A DNA stretch of 64,000 bases. It comes from Gracilibacillus caseinilyticus (lineage in GTDB: Bacteria > Bacillota > Bacilli > Bacillales > Amphibacillaceae). The notes below the pieces were generated by a model. That model ran no database searches and had not been told where the DNA came from. It saw nothing but the letters and a program-made list of their open reading frames with translations. The stretch lies in contig NZ_CP095072.1 of the NCBI RefSeq assembly GCF_022919115.1, positions 2,170,001 through 2,234,000 of the forward strand. Direction: 5' to 3'. Shown piece by piece: positions 9,962 to 19,155 of this stretch; the stretch's first letter is position 1, and each line of letters begins with the position of its first letter. Position numbers and translations under genes: made by a program.

Positions 9962-10456
9962 CAGAATCTACCCTCACGTGTGAATTTTCTGTTTTTTAAC
10001 AGTTTGGACAACAATACTAGTTTTCAAACGTCTCATACATAAATGGTAAAAAAAAACATCTTAGTGTGATCCCCCGATATGTCTAGTAGCGGAGAATGAA
10101 TCTGTCGGATGTTTGGAATCGATCTTGTAAACTTGTTTCAACACTAAGCTTTTTAGTTCTAGAGTAGAAGACGCTTCAATATTAGCAAGTCATTTGCAAC
10201 ACGCCTTGTAAATGGGACTTAAAGATACATGCGATTTTCTGTTTTTATCTGTTTGGAAAGTGAAATTTTAGCAGAGTAGTAATGGAACGTGGGGGAATTT
10301 CAGGAATAAACAAGAGATGAAAACTTTTGCCAGTGCTTGGAGATCGAAAAGCCAAATTTTTCTTTAATGTAAAACCTCGGAATATCTGTAAGAGAATCAG
10401 AAAGAAGAGTGATTGTGCAAAGTTATTCTATAATCTGTGATAGAATGGGAGTATTC
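9962..10456. other. Intergenic region between germination operon and hybrid kinase
   Basis: About 495 bases separate the two divergently transcribed units. They must hold the promoter of the germination operon (expected to be a sigma-G type) and that of the kinase. I could not mark either with confidence. No small ORF with a good ribosome site and no repeat was recognised here. Confidence 0.4.
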
Positions 10457-13400
10457 ATGCTTAGTAGACTAGTTCTTGAAAATTGTTTCATAAGTGGGGC
10501 GAATCAGTTGGCGTTTAAGTATAGACGGTACATATTCGTATTTATTGTCACTTCATTGATGATGTTGGTGATAAATAATAACAGTACCTTTGCAAAGCAG
10601 TCAGATACATCAGAGACGATTCACCATTTGAATGAGATAGAGGGAAAGGATTTTTATACAGATTTAGATGGAAAGTGGCATTTCTTTGCAAAGGAATTGT
10701 TAACACCTGATAAAATAAACGAACATGTATTACATGGAAAAGGAAAAATAGTATCTCTTCCTAGCTCATTTGAAACGCAAACAGGGGAAGTGAATGCTTT
10801 CGGAACATATAGTACAACCATTGAAATACCTAAAGAATATGTTGGGAAAACATTAGCTATCCATATTCCTTATCAATACAGTGCATATATTCTTTATATA
10901 GATCAAGTAGAAGTTGCCCAAAACGGTACAGTTGGAAAGGATCCAGCTTCCCATTCAGCTGAAATGGCTCCAAAAACGGCTTATTTCGTTCCTGAATCAA
11001 AGGAAATCTTACTTACGATGCAAGTTTCTAGCTTTGACCATATTAGAGGTGGATTTGAGAATTCGATTTATCTAGGGGAAGCTTCAGTAGTGACCCAAAA
11101 ATTTAATAGGAAGATGATCGGTACGATTTTTCTCAATGGAATTATTTTTATCATCGGTCTATTTATGATTTTATTTGCTTGGTATCGCAGAAAAGAGTTT
11201 TTGTTTTTTTTATTCGGATTGTTTGCCATGCTAATATCCGTTCGTGCTATATTTGCTGTTCCTTTTTATTACACGCTTATATTCATTGATATGCCTTGGC
11301 TTTTGGGAACAAAATTAGAATATATACTAACCGAGGCGACTTCCATGTTTTATATTATTTTATTGTGGAAATGGCATGAAAAGGAGTTTTCTAAGAAAAT
11401 CATGTATGGACTAGTGTTCATACATTTATTCTTAATTGTGACTACCTTAATTACGCAACCGGTATTTTTTCAAGATTTATTTTTTCAAGTATTTTACATA
11501 ACCATTCCTACTTTTTTCTATGCGGCTTATGTTATTGCTAAGAGTATTCGCAATAACAACAAGAATGCCAAAATAAATTTAATCGGATTGTCGCTTATTT
11601 TTCTGGCATTCTTTAATGACTTTGCGATAGGACAGAATTGGTATCAGTCATGGACATTGATGCTGCCAGCGGTTGCTGTCTATGTCATGATTCACGTTAT
11701 CGTAATGAGTAAAGGCTTTGCCGATTCTGTATGGCAGACAGAGCAACAAAATAAACAGTTAATTTCATTAAATACTTCTAATGAAGAACTTGCTCTGGAA
11801 CTGCAAAAAGAGATTAAACAAAAAGATGAATTTCTTGCCAATACATCCCATGAGCTTCGCAATCCATTACATGGGATTATTAATATCTCGCAATCGATTT
11901 TGCAGAACAGATCGGAGCAAGTGGATAAAAAAACGCGTAGTAACATACAACTACAGCTGACCATTGGGCATCATATGTCACGGACTTTGGAAGATTTATT
12001 AGACATTACTCGCTTGAAAGAACATAGGATACACTTACATAAGGAGCGTCTGGACCTGCAAGCTATCACGAGAGGCGTAGTAGATATGCTTTCGTTCCTT
12101 ATGGAAAATAAAAATATCCAAATGGACGTCCAAATTGCTAGTGACTTTCCGAGTGTAGCAGCGGATAAAAACCGTCTGATTCAAATTTTGTTTAATGTAC
12201 TTCATAATGCAGTGAAATTTACTGACGAAGGCATCATTACAATAGATGCTGACATACATAATGGGAAAGCAAGAGTTCATATTACAGATCCAGGTATTGG
12301 AATGGATGACAAGACATTAAATACGATCTTCCAAGCCTATAAACAAGGTGATTCCAGTATGACAGCAATAGGGGGTGGCCTGGGATTAGGTTTATATATT
12401 AGCAAGCAGTTAGTGGAAATGCACGGTGGTAGTATAAAAGCGCATTCTGTCTTAGGCGAAGGAACCGTATTTACTTTTACCTTACCATTAGCAAAAGACT
12501 CCTCGTTTGAAAGCGGAAAAGGAGCAACCCCAGCTAAACATATGCAAATAGGAGAACTTTCATTAAAAGAAACACCAATTGTCATGAATCATGCCATGGT
12601 GGAGGCATTTACTAATAATGTTGCCGTTTCTAAACGGCCAAGAATATTGGCAGTCGATGATGATCCTGTAAATTTGCAAGTGTTACGGAATATCTTGTCT
12701 AAAGATCAATATATAGTCGAATCCGTTACTAATGGAAAAGCCGCCTTACAACTATTAGAAGGGCAGGACTGGGATTTAATTATTTCGGATGTAATGATGC
12801 CAACTATGTCTGGCTATGATTTAACGCGTGCGATCCGGAAGAAATTTTCCATTTCTGAACTTCCTATACTGCTTCTTACAGCACGAAGCAATCCGGAAGA
12901 TATCTATACAGGTTTTTTAGCAGGTGCAAATGATTACGTCACAAAACCCGTTGATGCTGTTGAGTTAAATGTTCGGGTACATGCTTTAACCAATTTACAA
13001 GCATCTGTTAATGAACGATTAGGGATGGAGGCAGCATGGCTACAGTCTCAAATTCGACCACACTTTTTATTTAATACGCTAAATGCTATTGTTTCATTGA
13101 GTGAAGTAGACACGACGAGAATGAAGCATCTTCTGGATAGATTCACCCAGTATTTGCAGAGTAGTTTTTATCTGCAAAACTTAGAGAAGGTCGTTCATCT
13201 CCAATACGAAGTAGATTTGATTACGTCTTATTTATATATTGAAAAAGAGCGATTTAGAGATAGGCTACAAATAAAATGGGAAATAGAAGAAGTGGGTGAT
13301 GTCATGATTCCTCCTTTATCTATCCAAACATTAGTAGAGAATGCTGTTAATCATGGCGTCTTAAAGCAATCTGGTGGTGGTTCCATTACCATTCGAATTC

Positions 13401-13624
13401 ACAAAGTTGAAGAGGATACTGAAATTTCTGTTATGGATGATGGGATCGGTATGGAGAAGGAAACAATAGAAAAAATCTTTACGATCCAACCTGACCGCAA
13501 GAAAGGTATTGGACTACTGAATACCCAGCAGCGTTTGAAGCAGTTGTATGGCAAGGGGTTACATGTCAGGAGCACACCTGGTATTGGAACAACCGTCACG
13601 TTTACTGTACCTAACATATCTTAG
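10457..13624 (+). CDS. Giant hybrid sensor histidine kinase: 7TMR-DISMED2, HisKA, receiver, LytS-type kinase
   Basis: The 1055-residue protein has a signal/anchor helix (about residues 20-45), an extracellular jelly-roll domain of the 7TMR-DISMED2 type (about 60-215), seven membrane helices (about 220-430), a HisKA box FLANTSHELRNPLHG with His465, a HATPase domain, a receiver domain with phospho-acceptor Asp778 in LIISDVMMP, and then a second, LytS-like kinase module (QIRPHFLFNTLNAI, His869) with its own ATPase (VENAVNHG). Two kinase modules thus flank one receiver. I chose ATG 10457 because GGGAG lies five bases before it; GTG 10409 is possible. A full-length paralog of the same layout lies at 51707-54766 beside two response regulators. 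No response regulator is adjacent here. The ligand is unknown; DISMED2 domains are thought to bind carbohydrates. Confidence 0.9.
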   Translation: MLSRLVLENCFISGANQLAFKYRRYIFVFIVTSLMMLVINNNSTFAKQSDTSETIHHLNEIEGKDFYTDLDGKWHFFAKELLTPDKINEHVLHGKGKIVSLPSSFETQTGEVNAFGTYSTTIEIPKEYVGKTLAIHIPYQYSAYILYIDQVEVAQNGTVGKDPASHSAEMAPKTAYFVPESKEILLTMQVSSFDHIRGGFENSIYLGEASVVTQKFNRKMIGTIFLNGIIFIIGLFMILFAWYRRKEFLFFLFGLFAMLISVRAIFAVPFYYTLIFIDMPWLLGTKLEYILTEATSMFYIILLWKWHEKEFSKKIMYGLVFIHLFLIVTTLITQPVFFQDLFFQVFYITIPTFFYAAYVIAKSIRNNNKNAKINLIGLSLIFLAFFNDFAIGQNWYQSWTLMLPAVAVYVMIHVIVMSKGFADSVWQTEQQNKQLISLNTSNEELALELQKEIKQKDEFLANTSHELRNPLHGIINISQSILQNRSEQVDKKTRSNIQLQLTIGHHMSRTLEDLLDITRLKEHRIHLHKERLDLQAITRGVVDMLSFLMENKNIQMDVQIASDFPSVAADKNRLIQILFNVLHNAVKFTDEGIITIDADIHNGKARVHITDPGIGMDDKTLNTIFQAYKQGDSSMTAIGGGLGLGLYISKQLVEMHGGSIKAHSVLGEGTVFTFTLPLAKDSSFESGKGATPAKHMQIGELSLKETPIVMNHAMVEAFTNNVAVSKRPRILAVDDDPVNLQVLRNILSKDQYIVESVTNGKAALQLLEGQDWDLIISDVMMPTMSGYDLTRAIRKKFSISELPILLLTARSNPEDIYTGFLAGANDYVTKPVDAVELNVRVHALTNLQASVNERLGMEAAWLQSQIRPHFLFNTLNAIVSLSEVDTTRMKHLLDRFTQYLQSSFYLQNLEKVVHLQYEVDLITSYLYIEKERFRDRLQIKWEIEEVGDVMIPPLSIQTLVENAVNHGVLKQSGGGSITIRIHKVEEDTEISVMDDGIGMEKETIEKIFTIQPDRKKGIGLLNTQQRLKQLYGKGLHVRSTPGIGTTVTFTVPNIS

Positions 13625-13689: not shown

Positions 13690-13772
13690 CCGCATTACAA
13701 TAATTTTCGCTTAAGATTTAGAAAATAAAAGTGCAGATTCTTGTAGGTAATTTTGAAATGATTCAAGTACAA

Positions 13773-13930
13773 GGACAGCGATCCGGCCTCCTGCTGGGCA
13801 AAGAGGAAGCTAACTTTGTAAAGAAGACCATTTTGTCTGCAGCTGTGACTGCATGTATTGCTTCGAAGTCAGCTTCCTCGGCACCAGGCAGCAGAGAAGC
13901 CGTTCAAGTAATAGCCTAGCTGAAGCCGTA
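13773..13930. repeat. Dispersed hairpin-type intergenic repeat, copy 1
   Basis: The segment contains GAAGCTAACTTTGTAAAGAAG and later a GCCTAGCTGAAGCCGT end, both found again in the element at 18578-19155 (around 18683 and 19034). An inner pair, GAGGAAGCTAACTTTG against a GAAGTCAGCTTCCTC stretch, can fold back. A short frame through this DNA is not a gene. From 13931 to 14190 I see no further feature. Confidence 0.65.
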
Positions 13931-14192
13931 GCCCCATAACCGTCAAGCTAAGAAAAAGATAAAAAGTGCTTAAACTACCTTCTATGTTCGCTCCTAATAT
14001 AGAATCGATTCTTATGAACGGTTTAATACGTTTTTTCCGATTTTCGTCCATGAGATTCGATCTTATGACTGTTTGAAAAGGAAAAAAGCAAAAGTTGTCC
14101 GTAAGATTCAAATTTGTGACTTCTCAAGGATATGAAAGGACACTTGAGTCAATACCGATACTCTTTTTGCCAATATAGATTTTGCTCTTTTT

Positions 14193-14490: not shown

Positions 14491-15519
14491 CTAGAGCGAT
14501 GGGTGGAAATCTTCTAATGTAAACAACTCATCCAAATGAAAAATACCAGGTGGTAAAGGTTGCTTTAACATCTTTTCTATCAATAATGCCGTTATCATTG
14601 CCGTCATTATCGCCTCACTCTTGCCATACACTACATGACTGACCTCTTTAATGGTATCGTCTGTTTGATTATTCCCTTCCACATGAATCGCGCAAATATC
14701 GGAACCTATGCTAAAGGAATGAATGAGCTTGATAACTGCTTTTTTTATCCATTTTTGCTTTAATAGTGCGGTAAGGCGTGTGAATCGCAGCAAAGAGATA
14801 AGACGATTTATGCCTTCCACATCAAATGTAATATAGGTTTTGACCGTGCCAGAGGAGAAATGCTTTCTTAATGTATGCTGATCAGAGAAATTAAACAGGT
14901 AACTGCTGCGAGGTCCGACCTTTTGAAAATATGTTTTTTTCTTTTGAGAGAAATTAGTCACTTCCTTCTTAGTTGCGGCGTTTTGCAATAAATAGGATTG
15001 ATTGAACTGATCAAGCATCCATTCGATTGCTCCTTTACCATGTGCCTCCCCTAGTCCTAACAAAATAGTTATTCGTAATTCATCCATGTTGGAAAGGTGA
15101 TTTGCTGTATGCTTTGCAAGTAGATTGGACAGACCTGGAGCAAATCCTACACTAATAATGCCTGTTGCGTCTTGAACAACGGAATGAAGCTGCTCTATTT
15201 GTTGAATAAATCCATAACTGGCTGTAATATCAATGTAGTGGACACCATTTTCTAAGCAAAGTTTAGCAAAATTCGTATTTCGTTGTTCTAAACACATGAC
15301 GATGAGGTCCATATTCTTAATTTGCTCGAAACTTATCGGTTCGGTTACGTCAAGCTGTATGGCATGTGCATATGGACAAGTCTCCTCACAAAAATTTAGC
15401 GCTTTATCCAAACTTCTTCCACCAATATAAATAGTGAGGTCGGTGGAATTTGCCAGTTGTTTTGCGATTTGTCCACCTACTTTTCCATATCCGCCAACAA
15501 TCAACACATTTCTCATCAT
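14491..15519 (-). CDS. Saccharopine-dehydrogenase-like NAD(P)-binding protein
   Basis: The 342-residue protein starts with a Rossmann dinucleotide motif, VLIVGGYGKVGGQIAKQLA, and has the saccharopine-dehydrogenase NADP-domain pattern, including 'LENGVHYIDITASYGFI' and 'GIISVGFAPGLSNLLA'. Members reduce or oxidise C-N linked (opine-like) conjugates or act on amino-acid semialdehydes. Its ATG overlaps the methyltransferase stop, so the two are translationally coupled. Upstream lie a 32-codon ORF and a Fur-box-like site, which suggests induction on iron limitation. The product could modify or build a small metal-binding or iron-stress metabolite, but no synthetase, NAS-like gene or transporter is present here. 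Family good, role open. Confidence 0.8.
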   Translation of the reverse strand: MMRNVLIVGGYGKVGGQIAKQLANSTDLTIYIGGRSLDKALNFCEETCPYAHAIQLDVTEPISFEQIKNMDLIVMCLEQRNTNFAKLCLENGVHYIDITASYGFIQQIEQLHSVVQDATGIISVGFAPGLSNLLAKHTANHLSNMDELRITILLGLGEAHGKGAIEWMLDQFNQSYLLQNAATKKEVTNFSQKKKTYFQKVGPRSSYLFNFSDQHTLRKHFSSGTVKTYITFDVEGINRLISLLRFTRLTALLKQKWIKKAVIKLIHSFSIGSDICAIHVEGNNQTDDTIKEVSHVVYGKSEAIMTAMITALLIEKMLKQPLPPGIFHLDELFTLEDFHPSL

Positions 15520-16184
15520 GGCAGAGCACCTTTTGTTGCTACTATCGCATCTATTGCATAACTCTTGAAGTAGGGAATGATCTTAATAAACCCTGCCTCT
15601 TGTAACCATTGATGAATCCATTCAGCAGAAACAGGATGAGTGGTTTTGCCAAAAGATGATGAAAACGTTTCTATTTCTTCATCAGGCACGCCATTATTAC
15701 GCATATGTTGTTGCCAATAAGATAGGAGACGACTATCTGCTGTATTAATAGAGGAGATAAAGCAAAGTCCGCCTTCTTTCACTCTTTCACCAATATCTAA
15801 CAGTAATTCTTTTTTTTCTTCATGCAAAAAATGAAGCATCAAATGGCATGTAACAATATCAAACGGAGTAGTTGTTGGCACGTTAGCTAATTCTGTCTCA
15901 TACCAATCGATATGTTTCATCGATTTGTTAAGTCTCGATTTTGCTAATGCCATCATTCGATGAGATGGATCTATAGCGGTATACCTGACATCTGGATAGT
16001 CTTTACTAAGTGTGACAAGCTCTTGACCACCTCCGGCACCTATGATCAGAATGTCTTCTGGTATCTGAGTGGATCGGATAATGGCTAACATCTGTTCGTA
16101 TATCAAATCATATCCGGGTACTTTATTGCGGATCGTTTGTTGGTAGTTTTGGACAACGCGACTGTTCCAATTACCATGTGTCAT
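15516..16184 (-). CDS. Class I SAM-dependent methyltransferase
   Basis: This 222-residue enzyme shows motif I as ILIIGAGGGQELVTLSKDYP (residues about 43-62), the acidic end of strand 2 in 'YTAIDPSHRMMALAKSRL', motif post-I, and motif IV near 'FDIVTCHLMLHFL'. It therefore binds S-adenosylmethionine and methylates a small molecule or peptide. GGAGTGATATC precedes its ATG and lies inside the end of a 32-codon ORF whose stop overlaps the ATG. Its own stop overlaps the dehydrogenase start. The three reading frames are thus one coupled unit behind a Fur-box-like site. The substrate is unknown. It does not look like a nicotianamine synthase-type enzyme. Confidence 0.85.
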   Translation of the reverse strand: MTHGNWNSRVVQNYQQTIRNKVPGYDLIYEQMLAIIRSTQIPEDILIIGAGGGQELVTLSKDYPDVRYTAIDPSHRMMALAKSRLNKSMKHIDWYETELANVPTTTPFDIVTCHLMLHFLHEEKKELLLDIGERVKEGGLCFISSINTADSRLLSYWQQHMRNNGVPDEEIETFSSSFGKTTHPVSAEWIHQWLQEAGFIKIIPYFKSYAIDAIVATKGALP

Positions 16185-16279
16185 GATATCACTCCTTTAA
16201 TTCCCGCGTATGTTCTTGATCCTGAACGTATAAGATCAACCAATGGATATCGACTAAAATACGATATAATCCTATTCAT
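16181..16279 (-). CDS. Small 32-residue ORF coupled to the methyltransferase
   Basis: This short frame begins with ATG at 16279, ten bases after AAGGAG, and its TGA overlaps the methyltransferase ATG (TCATGA). The product is basic and amphipathic: it opens MNRIISYFSRYPLVDLIRSG and ends SRTYAGIKGVIS, with five Arg/Lys and one Asp. It is the first coding frame after the Fur-box-like site and a plausible promoter. It has no signal peptide and no resemblance I can name. It could be a leader peptide that couples translation, a small regulatory or membrane-surface protein, or a substrate of the next enzyme. Its existence as a translated protein is inferred from the ribosome site and overlap. Confidence 0.5.
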   Translation of the reverse strand: MNRIISYFSRYPLVDLIRSGSRTYAGIKGVIS

Positions 16280-16308
16280 TTTTTCAACACTCCTTGTTAT
16301 CATTTGAA

Positions 16309-16323
16309 TAATAATCATTCTCA
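16309..16323 (-). promoter_or_regulatory. Fur-box-like operator in divergent promoter
   Basis: Read on the minus strand the site is TGAGAATGATTATTA, a 13 of 15 match to the Bacillus Fur consensus TGATAATnATTATCA. It lies between the methyltransferase operon and the divergent LuxR-type gene. On the minus strand TTGAGA (starting in this box) and GATAAC 17 bases later could be the -35 and -10, so a bound repressor would cover the promoter. Confidence 0.65.
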
Positions 16324-16385
16324 ATTATAAACCTTAATTTTGAAAGTCACCATCCCATAAACTAGGGAGAGGGAGATGCGTAAAT

Positions 16386-17435
16386 ATGCAAGCTGAAAAT
16401 CAATATTGGAAACAACTATCAAATCGATTGCGTGGGAAATATCATGATTCCTATCATTATCGAAAAAAAATGGTAGAGGCATTACAAACGAGCATTTTTT
16501 TCGATGCTTATTGCTGTACTATTGTCAATCCACATACCCTTACATCTGTTGGCGCTGTTACGGAAAGTTCCATTGATGTTATCCATCAGCAATTATTAAT
16601 AAGTGAGTATAAGGAAGACGATGTACACCTTTACAAAGATTTAGTTCAGAACCAGAAGAAGATTGGCAGATTAAGTGATACATTTGGAGAGGTGGGAAGC
16701 AGAAGGTATGACACAATACTTAAACCACATCGTTTTTCTGATGAAATACGTGTAGCGCTTATGGAGAAAAATCAATGTTATGGTTTTTTAACATTATTTA
16801 AGAAAGAGCAGGCTGTTCAACAGTCTTATTTTTCAGATACGGATGTATTCTTATTAGAGAATGTAGCACCGATAATGGCACAGGCACTGCGATCTTATTA
16901 CCATGCTATTTCAGATAATGTGGATAATAGACAACCAGCCGGAACTGGCATTATCCTATTGAACCAGGATCTTCAGATTATATCGTCGAATGATACAGGT
17001 TCAAGCTATCTGCAGACGTTACAGAATTTTGAACGTTCATCTGCTTTGCCAAAGCCCATTCAAGCAATTGGCGCAAAATTAATAACAGAAGGGGAACCAT
17101 TGGCTCCAGTGTTTGTCCCGATCATTAACAACGTTTACTTGGTAGTTTCGGCATCCTTTCTACAAACAGAGTCAGAGACTCCTAGTATTGCAATTACATT
17201 GAATAAAGCAACTTCAAGAGATATGCTTTTTTATCTAATGGAGGTCTATCGGTTAACTTTAAGAGAAAAGGAAGTGGTACTTGAAAGTATCAGAGGCATT
17301 CCAGCTAAAGAAATAGCAGACAATTTAAATATCTCTTATTATACTGTTCAGGATCATCTTAAAGTCATTTTTCAAAAAGCAGGTGTTACTACACGAAACG
17401 AATTGATTTGGACGTTATTTTCGAAGTATCAGTGA
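16386..17435 (+). CDS. LuxR-family (NarL-type HTH) transcriptional regulator
   Basis: The 349-residue protein has a C-terminal LuxR helix-turn-helix (residues about 290-345: YRLTLREKEVVLESIRGIPA, KEIADNLNISYYTVQDHLK, VIFQKAGVTTRNELI). The preceding 280 residues look like a GAF-type sensory region followed by a linker; no receiver aspartate or transmembrane helix is evident. GGGAGAGGGAGATGCGTAA carries the ribosome site. It is divergent from the Fur-box operon and shares its 106-bp control region, so it may regulate that operon or be iron-controlled itself. This regulator type often sits beside small-molecule modification genes; the effector is unknown. Confidence 0.85.
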   Translation: MQAENQYWKQLSNRLRGKYHDSYHYRKKMVEALQTSIFFDAYCCTIVNPHTLTSVGAVTESSIDVIHQQLLISEYKEDDVHLYKDLVQNQKKIGRLSDTFGEVGSRRYDTILKPHRFSDEIRVALMEKNQCYGFLTLFKKEQAVQQSYFSDTDVFLLENVAPIMAQALRSYYHAISDNVDNRQPAGTGIILLNQDLQIISSNDTGSSYLQTLQNFERSSALPKPIQAIGAKLITEGEPLAPVFVPIINNVYLVVSASFLQTESETPSIAITLNKATSRDMLFYLMEVYRLTLREKEVVLESIRGIPAKEIADNLNISYYTVQDHLKVIFQKAGVTTRNELIWTLFSKYQ

Positions 17436-17713: not shown

Positions 17714-18472
17714 TTGAAACAAATCCTATTTGAAAAGGCACTTAATCGAACAAAAGTGGGAGTAGTCATTACGGATCCCGATCAACAAGATAATCCGATC
17801 ATCTTTGCTAATGAAGGCTTTTATAAATTAACTGGATATCGTAGTGAGGAAGTGATCGGACAGAATTGTCGCTTTCTTCAAGGTCCAGATACGAACAGGA
17901 ATAGTGTAAAAAAGATTTCTGAAGCTTTACATAATCGAAAATCGATTGAAATCTTGTTGTATAATTACAAAAAGAATCAGACAGGCTTCTGGAATGAGTT
18001 AATCATTGATCCGCTCTGGATTGAAGAAGAATCCAAGTTTTATTTTATTGGCATTCAAAAAGATATCAGTGAAGAAAGAGAAAAAACAATTATATTAGAA
18101 GAGACATTAAAAGAGATGGATAGCATCTCTACACCGATTGTGCCGATAACAGATAATGCGGTTATCCTGCCTTTAATTGGTAACTTTACCGATAAAAGAT
18201 TTGAATCGATGAGCAACAGGCTATCCTTTTATTTGGAAGATTCGGATGAAGATTACCTTATTATCGATTTGTCGGGCTTGTATGAAATGGATACGTATGT
18301 TGTTTCCCGTTTCTTTGAGATCAGTCAATTAGCTCGTTTAATGGGAAAAGAAACACTATTGGCAGGAATCGGTCCTAATCTGGCTATGAAAACAGCTGGT
18401 CTGGTTGACACGGTAAATAAAATTCCGACATTTAACAATGTGAAAGCAGCTGTTAAATATATTTCCGAATAA
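17714..18472 (+). CDS. ytvA: LOV-STAS blue-light photoreceptor (YtvA-like)
   Basis: The 252-residue protein has an N-terminal LOV/PAS domain (residues about 5-110) with the photoreactive motif GQNCRFLQ; Cys52 would form the flavin adduct. GYRSEEVIG precedes it, followed by 'RNRKSIEILLYNYKKNQTGFWNELIIDP'-type strands. A linker helix (112-137) leads to a STAS domain (about 145-252) with LIIDLSGLYEMDT. In B. subtilis YtvA feeds blue light into the general stress response through the stressosome. Translation starts at TTG 17714, ten bases after GGAGGG. The gene stands alone between its promoter and a strong terminator. Confidence 0.92.
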   Translation: MKQILFEKALNRTKVGVVITDPDQQDNPIIFANEGFYKLTGYRSEEVIGQNCRFLQGPDTNRNSVKKISEALHNRKSIEILLYNYKKNQTGFWNELIIDPLWIEEESKFYFIGIQKDISEEREKTIILEETLKEMDSISTPIVPITDNAVILPLIGNFTDKRFESMSNRLSFYLEDSDEDYLIIDLSGLYEMDTYVVSRFFEISQLARLMGKETLLAGIGPNLAMKTAGLVDTVNKIPTFNNVKAAVKYISE

Positions 18473-18577: not shown

Positions 18578-19155
18578 CTTATAATATGGATTATGTCAAC
18601 TAACACAGTGGTAACTTTGAAATGTTTCATATGCTGGGAGACCGCTCCGTCCAACCACTCCGCGTCCTGCGGGGCACGGCTGAAGCTAACTTTGTGAAGA
18701 AGATCGCTTCACAAAGTGGATCTTCAGCACCTGCATGTCCCGCGGGAGTCTTCGTGGTTGGCCTACGTTCTAGTATTGGTTCTACAACGGACGCAAGAGG
18801 TAACATTTTGGGCAGTCTCCACCGATTTCATCATTCACTGTAACAATGCTTAAAATCCTTACTTTTAGCTGTTACAAACGCTGTAGCACTTCCCTAAAGC
18901 GTAGGAAATATGCGGAGACTCCTCATGCGTCAGCGCGAGCTGAAGATCCACTTTGTCTGTGCCTGTGTCTGCTAGAATCACTTCGAAGTGAGCTTCCTCG
19001 TCACAAGGCAGCAAAGAAGTTGTTCAAGTAGTAGCCTAGCTGAAGCCGTGCCCACTGGACGCGGAGCATATTTCCGGAGCTTTGCTGAGCAAATGAAATC
19101 TATCAAAATTAACACAATGTCAGATAGTTCTACTTTACTTAATCCATATTATAGG
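18578..19155. mobile_element. MITE-like non-coding element with terminal inverted repeats
   Basis: TATAATATGGATTA at 18580-18593 is repeated in perfect inverted orientation as TAATCCATATTATA at 19140-19153. Inside lies a long fold-back: CCAACCAC (18651-18658) pairs with GTGGTTGG (18754-18761), enclosing CTGAAG/CTTCAG and ACTTTGTGAAG/CTTCACAAAGT. A second half (about 18860-19085) has a GAGGAAGCTC-type fold and ends with GACGCGGAGCATATTTC. No transposase is encoded; the open frames here are by-products of the repeats. Partial copies of its parts occur at 13773, 39030, 56738 and 59555. Bases 19156-19394 hold only a weak hairpin near 19183. Confidence 0.65.

Follow-up and report, generated by a model that had tools for sequence, protein, structure and literature searches.

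What is the task of an operon in which a methyltransferase and a dehydrogenase-like enzyme follow a Fur box and an open reading frame (ORF) of just 32 codons? The question is raised by a locus of Gracilibacillus caseinilyticus, which lies in a stretch of 64,000 nucleotides (NZ_CP095072.1, positions 2,170,001 to 2,234,000; hereafter the window) of a 4.51-Mb genome assembled as one contig. Its minus strand carries a Fur box, the small ORF and the genes for an S-adenosylmethionine (SAM)-dependent methyltransferase (MT) and a saccharopine-dehydrogenase-like enzyme (SDH), while a divergent gene on the plus strand encodes a LuxR-type regulator (Table 1). The TGA of the small ORF overlaps the ATG of MT (TCATGA), and the TGA of MT overlaps the ATG of SDH (ATGA). 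Both overlaps, the Fur box, the 32-codon ORF with its preceding AAGGAG and the divergent LuxR gene had been described in an original prediction made from this DNA alone, and all of them are indeed in place.

With moderate confidence, we favour the following answer. The locus appears to represent a module of the Bacillales that is controlled by LuxR and Fur and would act on a small amine or chelator; in the window it would have lost an importer, of which the small ORF would be the scar. The constant core of this module seems to be the LuxR-type regulator and an NADP-dependent SDH acting on imines or C-N bonds, often joined by MT and, in a few species, by an SsuABC-type importer. It is likely to modify some small amine or chelator when iron is scarce.

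Table 1. Features of the locus, with positions numbered from the first nucleotide of the window
Feature	Position	Strand	Remarks
LuxR-type dyad CTCCCTAGTTTATGGGAT	16352..16369	-	10/12 to ATCCCA-N6-TGGGAT; putative LuxR binding site
-10 element TATAAT of the MT-SDH operon	16324..16329	-	aligned across loci; directly abuts the Fur box
Fur box TGAGAATGATTATTA	16309..16323	-	13/15 to TGATAATGATTATCA
32-codon ORF	16181..16279 (incl. stop)	-	ATG start, AAGGAG before it; probable scar/leader of a lost ABC importer
MT, class I SAM methyltransferase	15516..16184	-	cmo5U34/CysG-like
SDH, saccharopine-dehydrogenase-like NADP-dependent enzyme	14491..15519	-	carboxyspermidine-dehydrogenase fold
Divergent LuxR-type regulator	16386..17435	+	C-terminal GerE helix-turn-helix

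LuxR dyad and Fur box in the promoter

Alignment of the leaders brought out a dyad, ATCCCA-N6-TGGGAT, which the original prediction did not contain and which lies 21-22 bp upstream of TATAAT. It was scored in 46 LuxR-linked loci, namely the window, 41 loci from the SDH search described below, L121-L123 and L140, the last of which was itself found via the dyad motif; near-copies and close kin are among them, so that these counts are not independent. At least 9 of 12 positions agree in all 46 loci (15.8% of shuffles) and at least 10 in 38 of them (1.9% of shuffles), and the spacing to the -10 element is 21-22 bp in 45. When 20 module-bearing genomes were searched with the promoter motif, 16 hits were obtained in 15 genomes and none in the control; by coordinate comparison, every hit falls at a module, and the surplus hit belongs to a second LuxR gene with a truncated MT in Saliterribacillus. 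The LuxR-type gene of the window matches GerE with 39 bits and NF041232 with 103 bits (cut-off 700), and its product bears a weak likeness to BagY/FevT over most of its length. The linkage of dyad and gene suggests that the LuxR protein binds the dyad. This compact and patchily distributed Bacillales operon carries a promoter signature of LuxR dyad, -10 element and Fur box at fixed spacing; in the 20 module-bearing genomes it singles out modules exclusively, so that both the regulation and the product lend themselves to direct tests in culturable relatives, such as Lysinibacillus, the Bacillus licheniformis group and Paenibacillus.

The pattern TGAKAATNATTATYA, with one mismatch allowed, matches a single place in the window, the Fur box, with 0 mismatches (shuffles average 0.5 matches); taken alone, this count is weak evidence. 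Across the 4.51-Mb genome, however, just 5 distinct places carry the exact pattern, compared with 0 in the reversed control, and the other four are each found directly upstream of siderophore-type ABC importer genes: three precede Peripla_BP_2 lipoproteins and one an ABC ATPase. Three of these four sites have FecCD permease genes at most a few kb downstream, no FecCD match being listed near the fourth, at 2109289, and the exact 15-mer of the window recurs at one of them. Because all four other sites precede such genes, the Fur box of the window, which agrees with the 7-1-7 operator at 12 of 14 positions (centre excluded), is strongly supported as a real Fur operator, and the Fur-type iron control put forward in the original prediction gains support accordingly. 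IucA/IucC siderophore synthetases were not found in the genome.

Fur boxes recur in the relatives. They are perfect (14/14) in L032, L033, L034 and L035; a score of at least 11/14 is reached in 23 of 41 SDH loci with a LuxR gene versus 1 of 39 without; and, counted by hand, 34 of the 46 LuxR-linked loci have a Fur-like box directly beside the -10 element. Since the dyad is found in all 46 loci and the Fur-like box in 34, control by LuxR seems to be the constant element, with iron control superimposed on it. Compared with the Fur regulon of bacilli as generally known, the locus has the same 7-1-7 operator over the start region, but here the operator is overlaid on a private LuxR dyad, and its target is an enzyme pair instead of an importer. 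We envisage that the LuxR protein would sense a metabolite, bind the dyad in place of a -35 box and activate the operon, and that iron-loaded Fur, sitting over the start region, would block it when iron is plentiful.

The importer slot and the 32-codon ORF

In four of the 41 LuxR loci (L040, L041, L081 and L107), genes for an NMT1/SsuA-type lipoprotein, a permease and an ATPase, that is, an SsuABC-type importer, lie between the Fur box and MT. Pfam NMT1 scores above its cut-off in all four lipoproteins, and permease and ATPase were family-scanned in L041. The module copy in L081 is itself decaying, given that its permease is split into two ORFs and that the SDH after MT is a fragment; this LuxR-ABC-MT module of Bacillus pakistanensis (L081:2316-10452) stands beside a second, MarR-linked SDH and a P450 gene. 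At E ≤ 1e-15, the binding protein of the slot has no match in the genome of the window and is found in 3 of 299 genomes of the order, one of which is the L107 genome and a second L119. At L119:1335-9504, an SsuABC-type transporter lies beside a FecCD/SstD-like siderophore importer, another SAM methyltransferase and a flavodoxin, and at L120:5432-8802 a relative of the SsuABC-type importer adjoins another SAM methyltransferase (recognized by eye, that of L119 by scanning); the two are possibly a related system of iron-linked uptake and methylation.

Traces of the importer persist in relatives of the window that do not carry it. Just before MT, the profile of the ATPase C-terminus matches the leaders of Saliterribacillus persicus (L031, 15.3 bits) and Amphibacillus cookii (L032, 14.8 bits); in either case, none of 300 shuffles scored as high. 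In the SDH tree, L031 is the sister of the window (96/86), and L032 falls on the other side of the window's seven-row clade (100/99). Given remnants in two relatives, including the sister, and this tree, the most parsimonious account is that the ancestor of the clade had the importer, which was then probably lost; the importer genes would have been deleted in the lineage of the window as well.

The small ORF that occupies the same slot in the window is most likely a scar of this loss and not a working peptide gene, a descent suggested by its position and by the relatives. It looks translatable: in dinucleotide shuffles of the leader, an ORF of at least 25 codons with a ribosome site arises in 2.7%, whereas an ORF of that length with any start arises in 39%. 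This rarity, the good ribosome site, the coupling to MT and the two adjacent modifying enzymes speak for the suggestion of the original prediction that the small basic peptide serves MT and SDH as a ribosomally synthesized substrate or scaffold for modification. The relatives speak against it, and we regard it as highly improbable. The window peptide resembles the products of eight other leader ORFs no more than shuffled sequences do (of 500 shuffles, 27 to 458 were as good, with L032, at 27/500, nearest to an exception); these ORFs measure 35 amino acids (aa) in L033, 33 aa in L036, 39 aa in L035, 26 aa in L123, 25 aa in L078, 24 aa in L082, 19 aa in L031 and 12 aa in L032. Moreover, L121, L122 and six Lysinibacillus loci (L037, L038, L042-L045) keep both enzymes but have no ribosome-site small ORF, and the product of the window ORF matches no Pfam or NCBIfam family. 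A precursor of the type of the ribosomally synthesized and post-translationally modified peptides, or a scaffold, is rejected on this lack of conservation among relatives that keep the enzymes. The leader ORFs of L032 and L033 do share a lipoprotein-like start (0/500 shuffles as good, 1/500 in another run), as one would predict if a binding-protein gene were decaying in two sister species.

Alternatively, the ORF could be a maintained regulatory leader or translational coupler whose position is kept while its sequence is not. Ribosome-site ORFs of 24-39 codons in the window, L033, L035, L036, L123, L078 and L082 are in line with this, as is the fact that three of them, those of the window, L033 and L123, overlap the start that follows; yet such ORFs are missing from many loci with the same promoter and are readily explained as the remains of a gene start, which makes a maintained leader possible but doubtful. 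It is also not exclusive of a scar: within the importer slot, the ORF, presumably non-functional as a peptide, would probably keep a ribosome site that feeds MT by coupling, and it may well be translated. A lost gene can in this way leave a small ORF that resembles a peptide gene.

Enzymes, distribution and possible roles

SDH has the two-domain fold of carboxyspermidine dehydrogenase/saccharopine reductase with an NADP-binding domain, which places it in this superfamily, and its nearest relatives therein are carboxyspermidine dehydrogenase, saccharopine reductase and homospermidine synthase (8h4z, 8deb, 1ff9, 6s65). Family scans at E ≤ 1 yield Sacchrp_dh_NADP for it, and none of the opine-dehydrogenase models. 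From carboxyspermidine dehydrogenases it differs in sequence (17-18% identity) and length (342 residues versus about 390-475), and no polyamine gene was noticed beside it, albeit without a dedicated search. MT is closest to the cmo5U34 (8k5l, CmoA) and CysG methyltransferases; its matches listed at E ≤ 1 in Pfam and NCBIfam are chiefly general methyltransferase families, with no nicotianamine synthase among them. The CysG/BelI O-methyltransferases, to which MT was also likened, include CysG with a His-His-Asp metal motif (PMC11408123). A CysG-type metal motif was rejected for MT in a comparison of the two His positions: at the second, MT has Phe119, and all 25 MTs compared share this residue; His118 is kept in 22 of the 25.

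An alignment-based contig search yielded 460 SDH loci, of which the best 80 were kept; 41 of these carry a LuxR gene and 30 MT. MT is present in 28 of the 41 LuxR loci (in L067 as a weak match of 25 bits) and missing from the other 13. Within the family of the window, SDH occurs in 10 of 159 genomes at E ≤ 1e-30 and MT in 7 of 159 at E ≤ 1e-15, all seven being among the ten with SDH. Of 397 genomes drawn evenly from the order, among them the genome of the window and one genus-mate, 10 contain MT at E ≤ 1e-18; there are 11 places, and inspection of the nine others with 1.5 kb on each side revealed SDH beside MT in six (L162, L164, L166, L168, L169 and L170). The module is thus patchy across both order and family, and the nearest module locus examined shares only 58% SDH identity with the window. 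Plasmid contexts of distant SDHs (4 of 39 records) gave no functional lead.

In Brevibacillus (L065:5295-10547 and L073:5329-10427), the LuxR dyad promoter precedes an MFS transporter and SDH in place of MT and SDH; DinB-like and nitroreductase-like genes, named by eye, follow SDH.

From the folds and neighbours of the enzymes, MT would methylate a small molecule resembling an amine, an amino acid or a chelator, SDH would reduce or reductively couple the same molecule, and importer-bearing species would take it up from outside. The iron-stress pathway of the original prediction is supported as far as small molecules are concerned, on which these enzyme families act, and is not supported for a peptide substrate. 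Several observations weigh against our overall reading. Besides the dependence among the locus counts, 12 of the 46 loci (L059, L063, L076, L077, L094, L095, L097, L104, L106, L108, L109 and L082, where the box is shifted) have no Fur-like box beside the -10 element, including all five of the Bacillus pumilus group; iron can therefore not be essential to the module, and, as iron control is not universal in it, we do not take its product to be a siderophore. The ATPase remnant is confined to two of six importer-less leaders and is found in neither L033, L035 and L036 nor the window, whose leader scores -0.4 bits (43 of 300 shuffles as good), and profiles of binding protein and permease reveal no remnant in any of the six (at best, 18 of 300 shuffles as good); with no importer homology detectable in its own leader, an origin of the window's ORF by deletion is suggested by its position and by its relatives. 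Three of the nine inspected MT places show no SDH within 1.5 kb (L163, which has a LuxR gene and an MT with an in-frame stop, L165 and L171), and two MT relatives outside the context survey, P0122 and P0124, are as close as any locus seen. Finally, SDH relatives elsewhere adjoin MarR, MFS, EamA or P450 genes, which fits detoxification equally well.

Such detoxification or salvage would concern a small molecule of foreign origin, such as a xenosiderophore or a chelating antibiotic, with LuxR as the sensor and Fur adding iron control. The greater constancy of the dyad compared with the Fur box, the MarR-type regulators and the MFS, EamA or P450 genes around the wider SDH family, and the patchy occurrence in the family all suit this idea; but no defined resistance gene is present, and the perfect Fur boxes in two genera suggest that iron matters there, so we consider it a tentative alternative. 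A third option is an opine-type metallophore pathway, in which a chelator is built, exported and re-imported, as in the cnt systems for staphylopine, pseudopaline and bacillopaline (PMC7438024). Both systems pair a SAM enzyme with a dehydrogenase and have a metal-linked site, and MFS or EamA exporters beside SDH and ABC importers occur around relatives of the module; the Fur box, the amine-coupling SDH fold and, in L121 and L122, siderophore-type FecCD permease genes no more than about 5 kb away from the module point the same way. Against it, family scans liken neither MT to nicotianamine synthase nor SDH to CntM, the importer is of the SsuABC type and not Opp or FecCD, the promoter has the LuxR dyad, the window operon contains neither exporter nor importer, and 13 of 41 LuxR loci dispense with MT. 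Membership in the cnt type was rejected on the absence of CntL or CntM family matches for MT and SDH in Pfam and NCBIfam, and no CntM-type enzyme is among the matches listed from structural comparisons of SDH; a pathway like cnt in the broader sense seems unlikely to us. Still less probable, and offered as speculation, is a new class of small metallophores, made by carboxyspermidine-dehydrogenase-like amine coupling and methylation without nicotianamine synthase, CntM or non-ribosomal peptide synthetase (NRPS), whose product or metal complex would be sensed by the cognate LuxR and gated by Fur, with species lacking the importer or MT sharing or cheating.

Siderophore clusters do contain proteins annotated as members of the saccharopine-dehydrogenase family, PchK of enantio-pyochelin (PMC3377617) and EqbM of equibactin (PMC3672683); by these annotations, they resemble SDH at the level of the Pfam family, and their clusters differ from the window operon, which has no NRPS. 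In keeping with the original prediction, which knew of no matching system, a literature search of limited coverage found no description of the module, and the word saccharopine is absent from the main text of two Bacillus stress papers (PMC3896406, PMC3878961). Should the product of the module bind iron, the module would represent a new and minimal way of making a metallophore; otherwise, it would exemplify iron control layered on a metabolite-sensing switch.

Other features of the window

Directly downstream of the LuxR gene, at 17714-18472, lies a gene for a protein with PAS and STAS domains, similar to the blue-light/stress regulator YtvA. A large hybrid sensor at 10409-13624 combines 7TMR-DISM, histidine kinase, receiver and a second His_kinase (PF06580) in one protein. 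No Rfam family matches in the window at gathering thresholds, and this includes the two copies, at 13746-13934 and 18610-19053, of a repeat interspersed throughout the genome (at least 52 match pieces, with 40 of 172 candidates scored). Other copies consist of two blocks about 200-300 bp apart, as does the one at 18610-19053, whereas the copy at 13746 looks internally deleted; the two are 83% identical across 113 bp.
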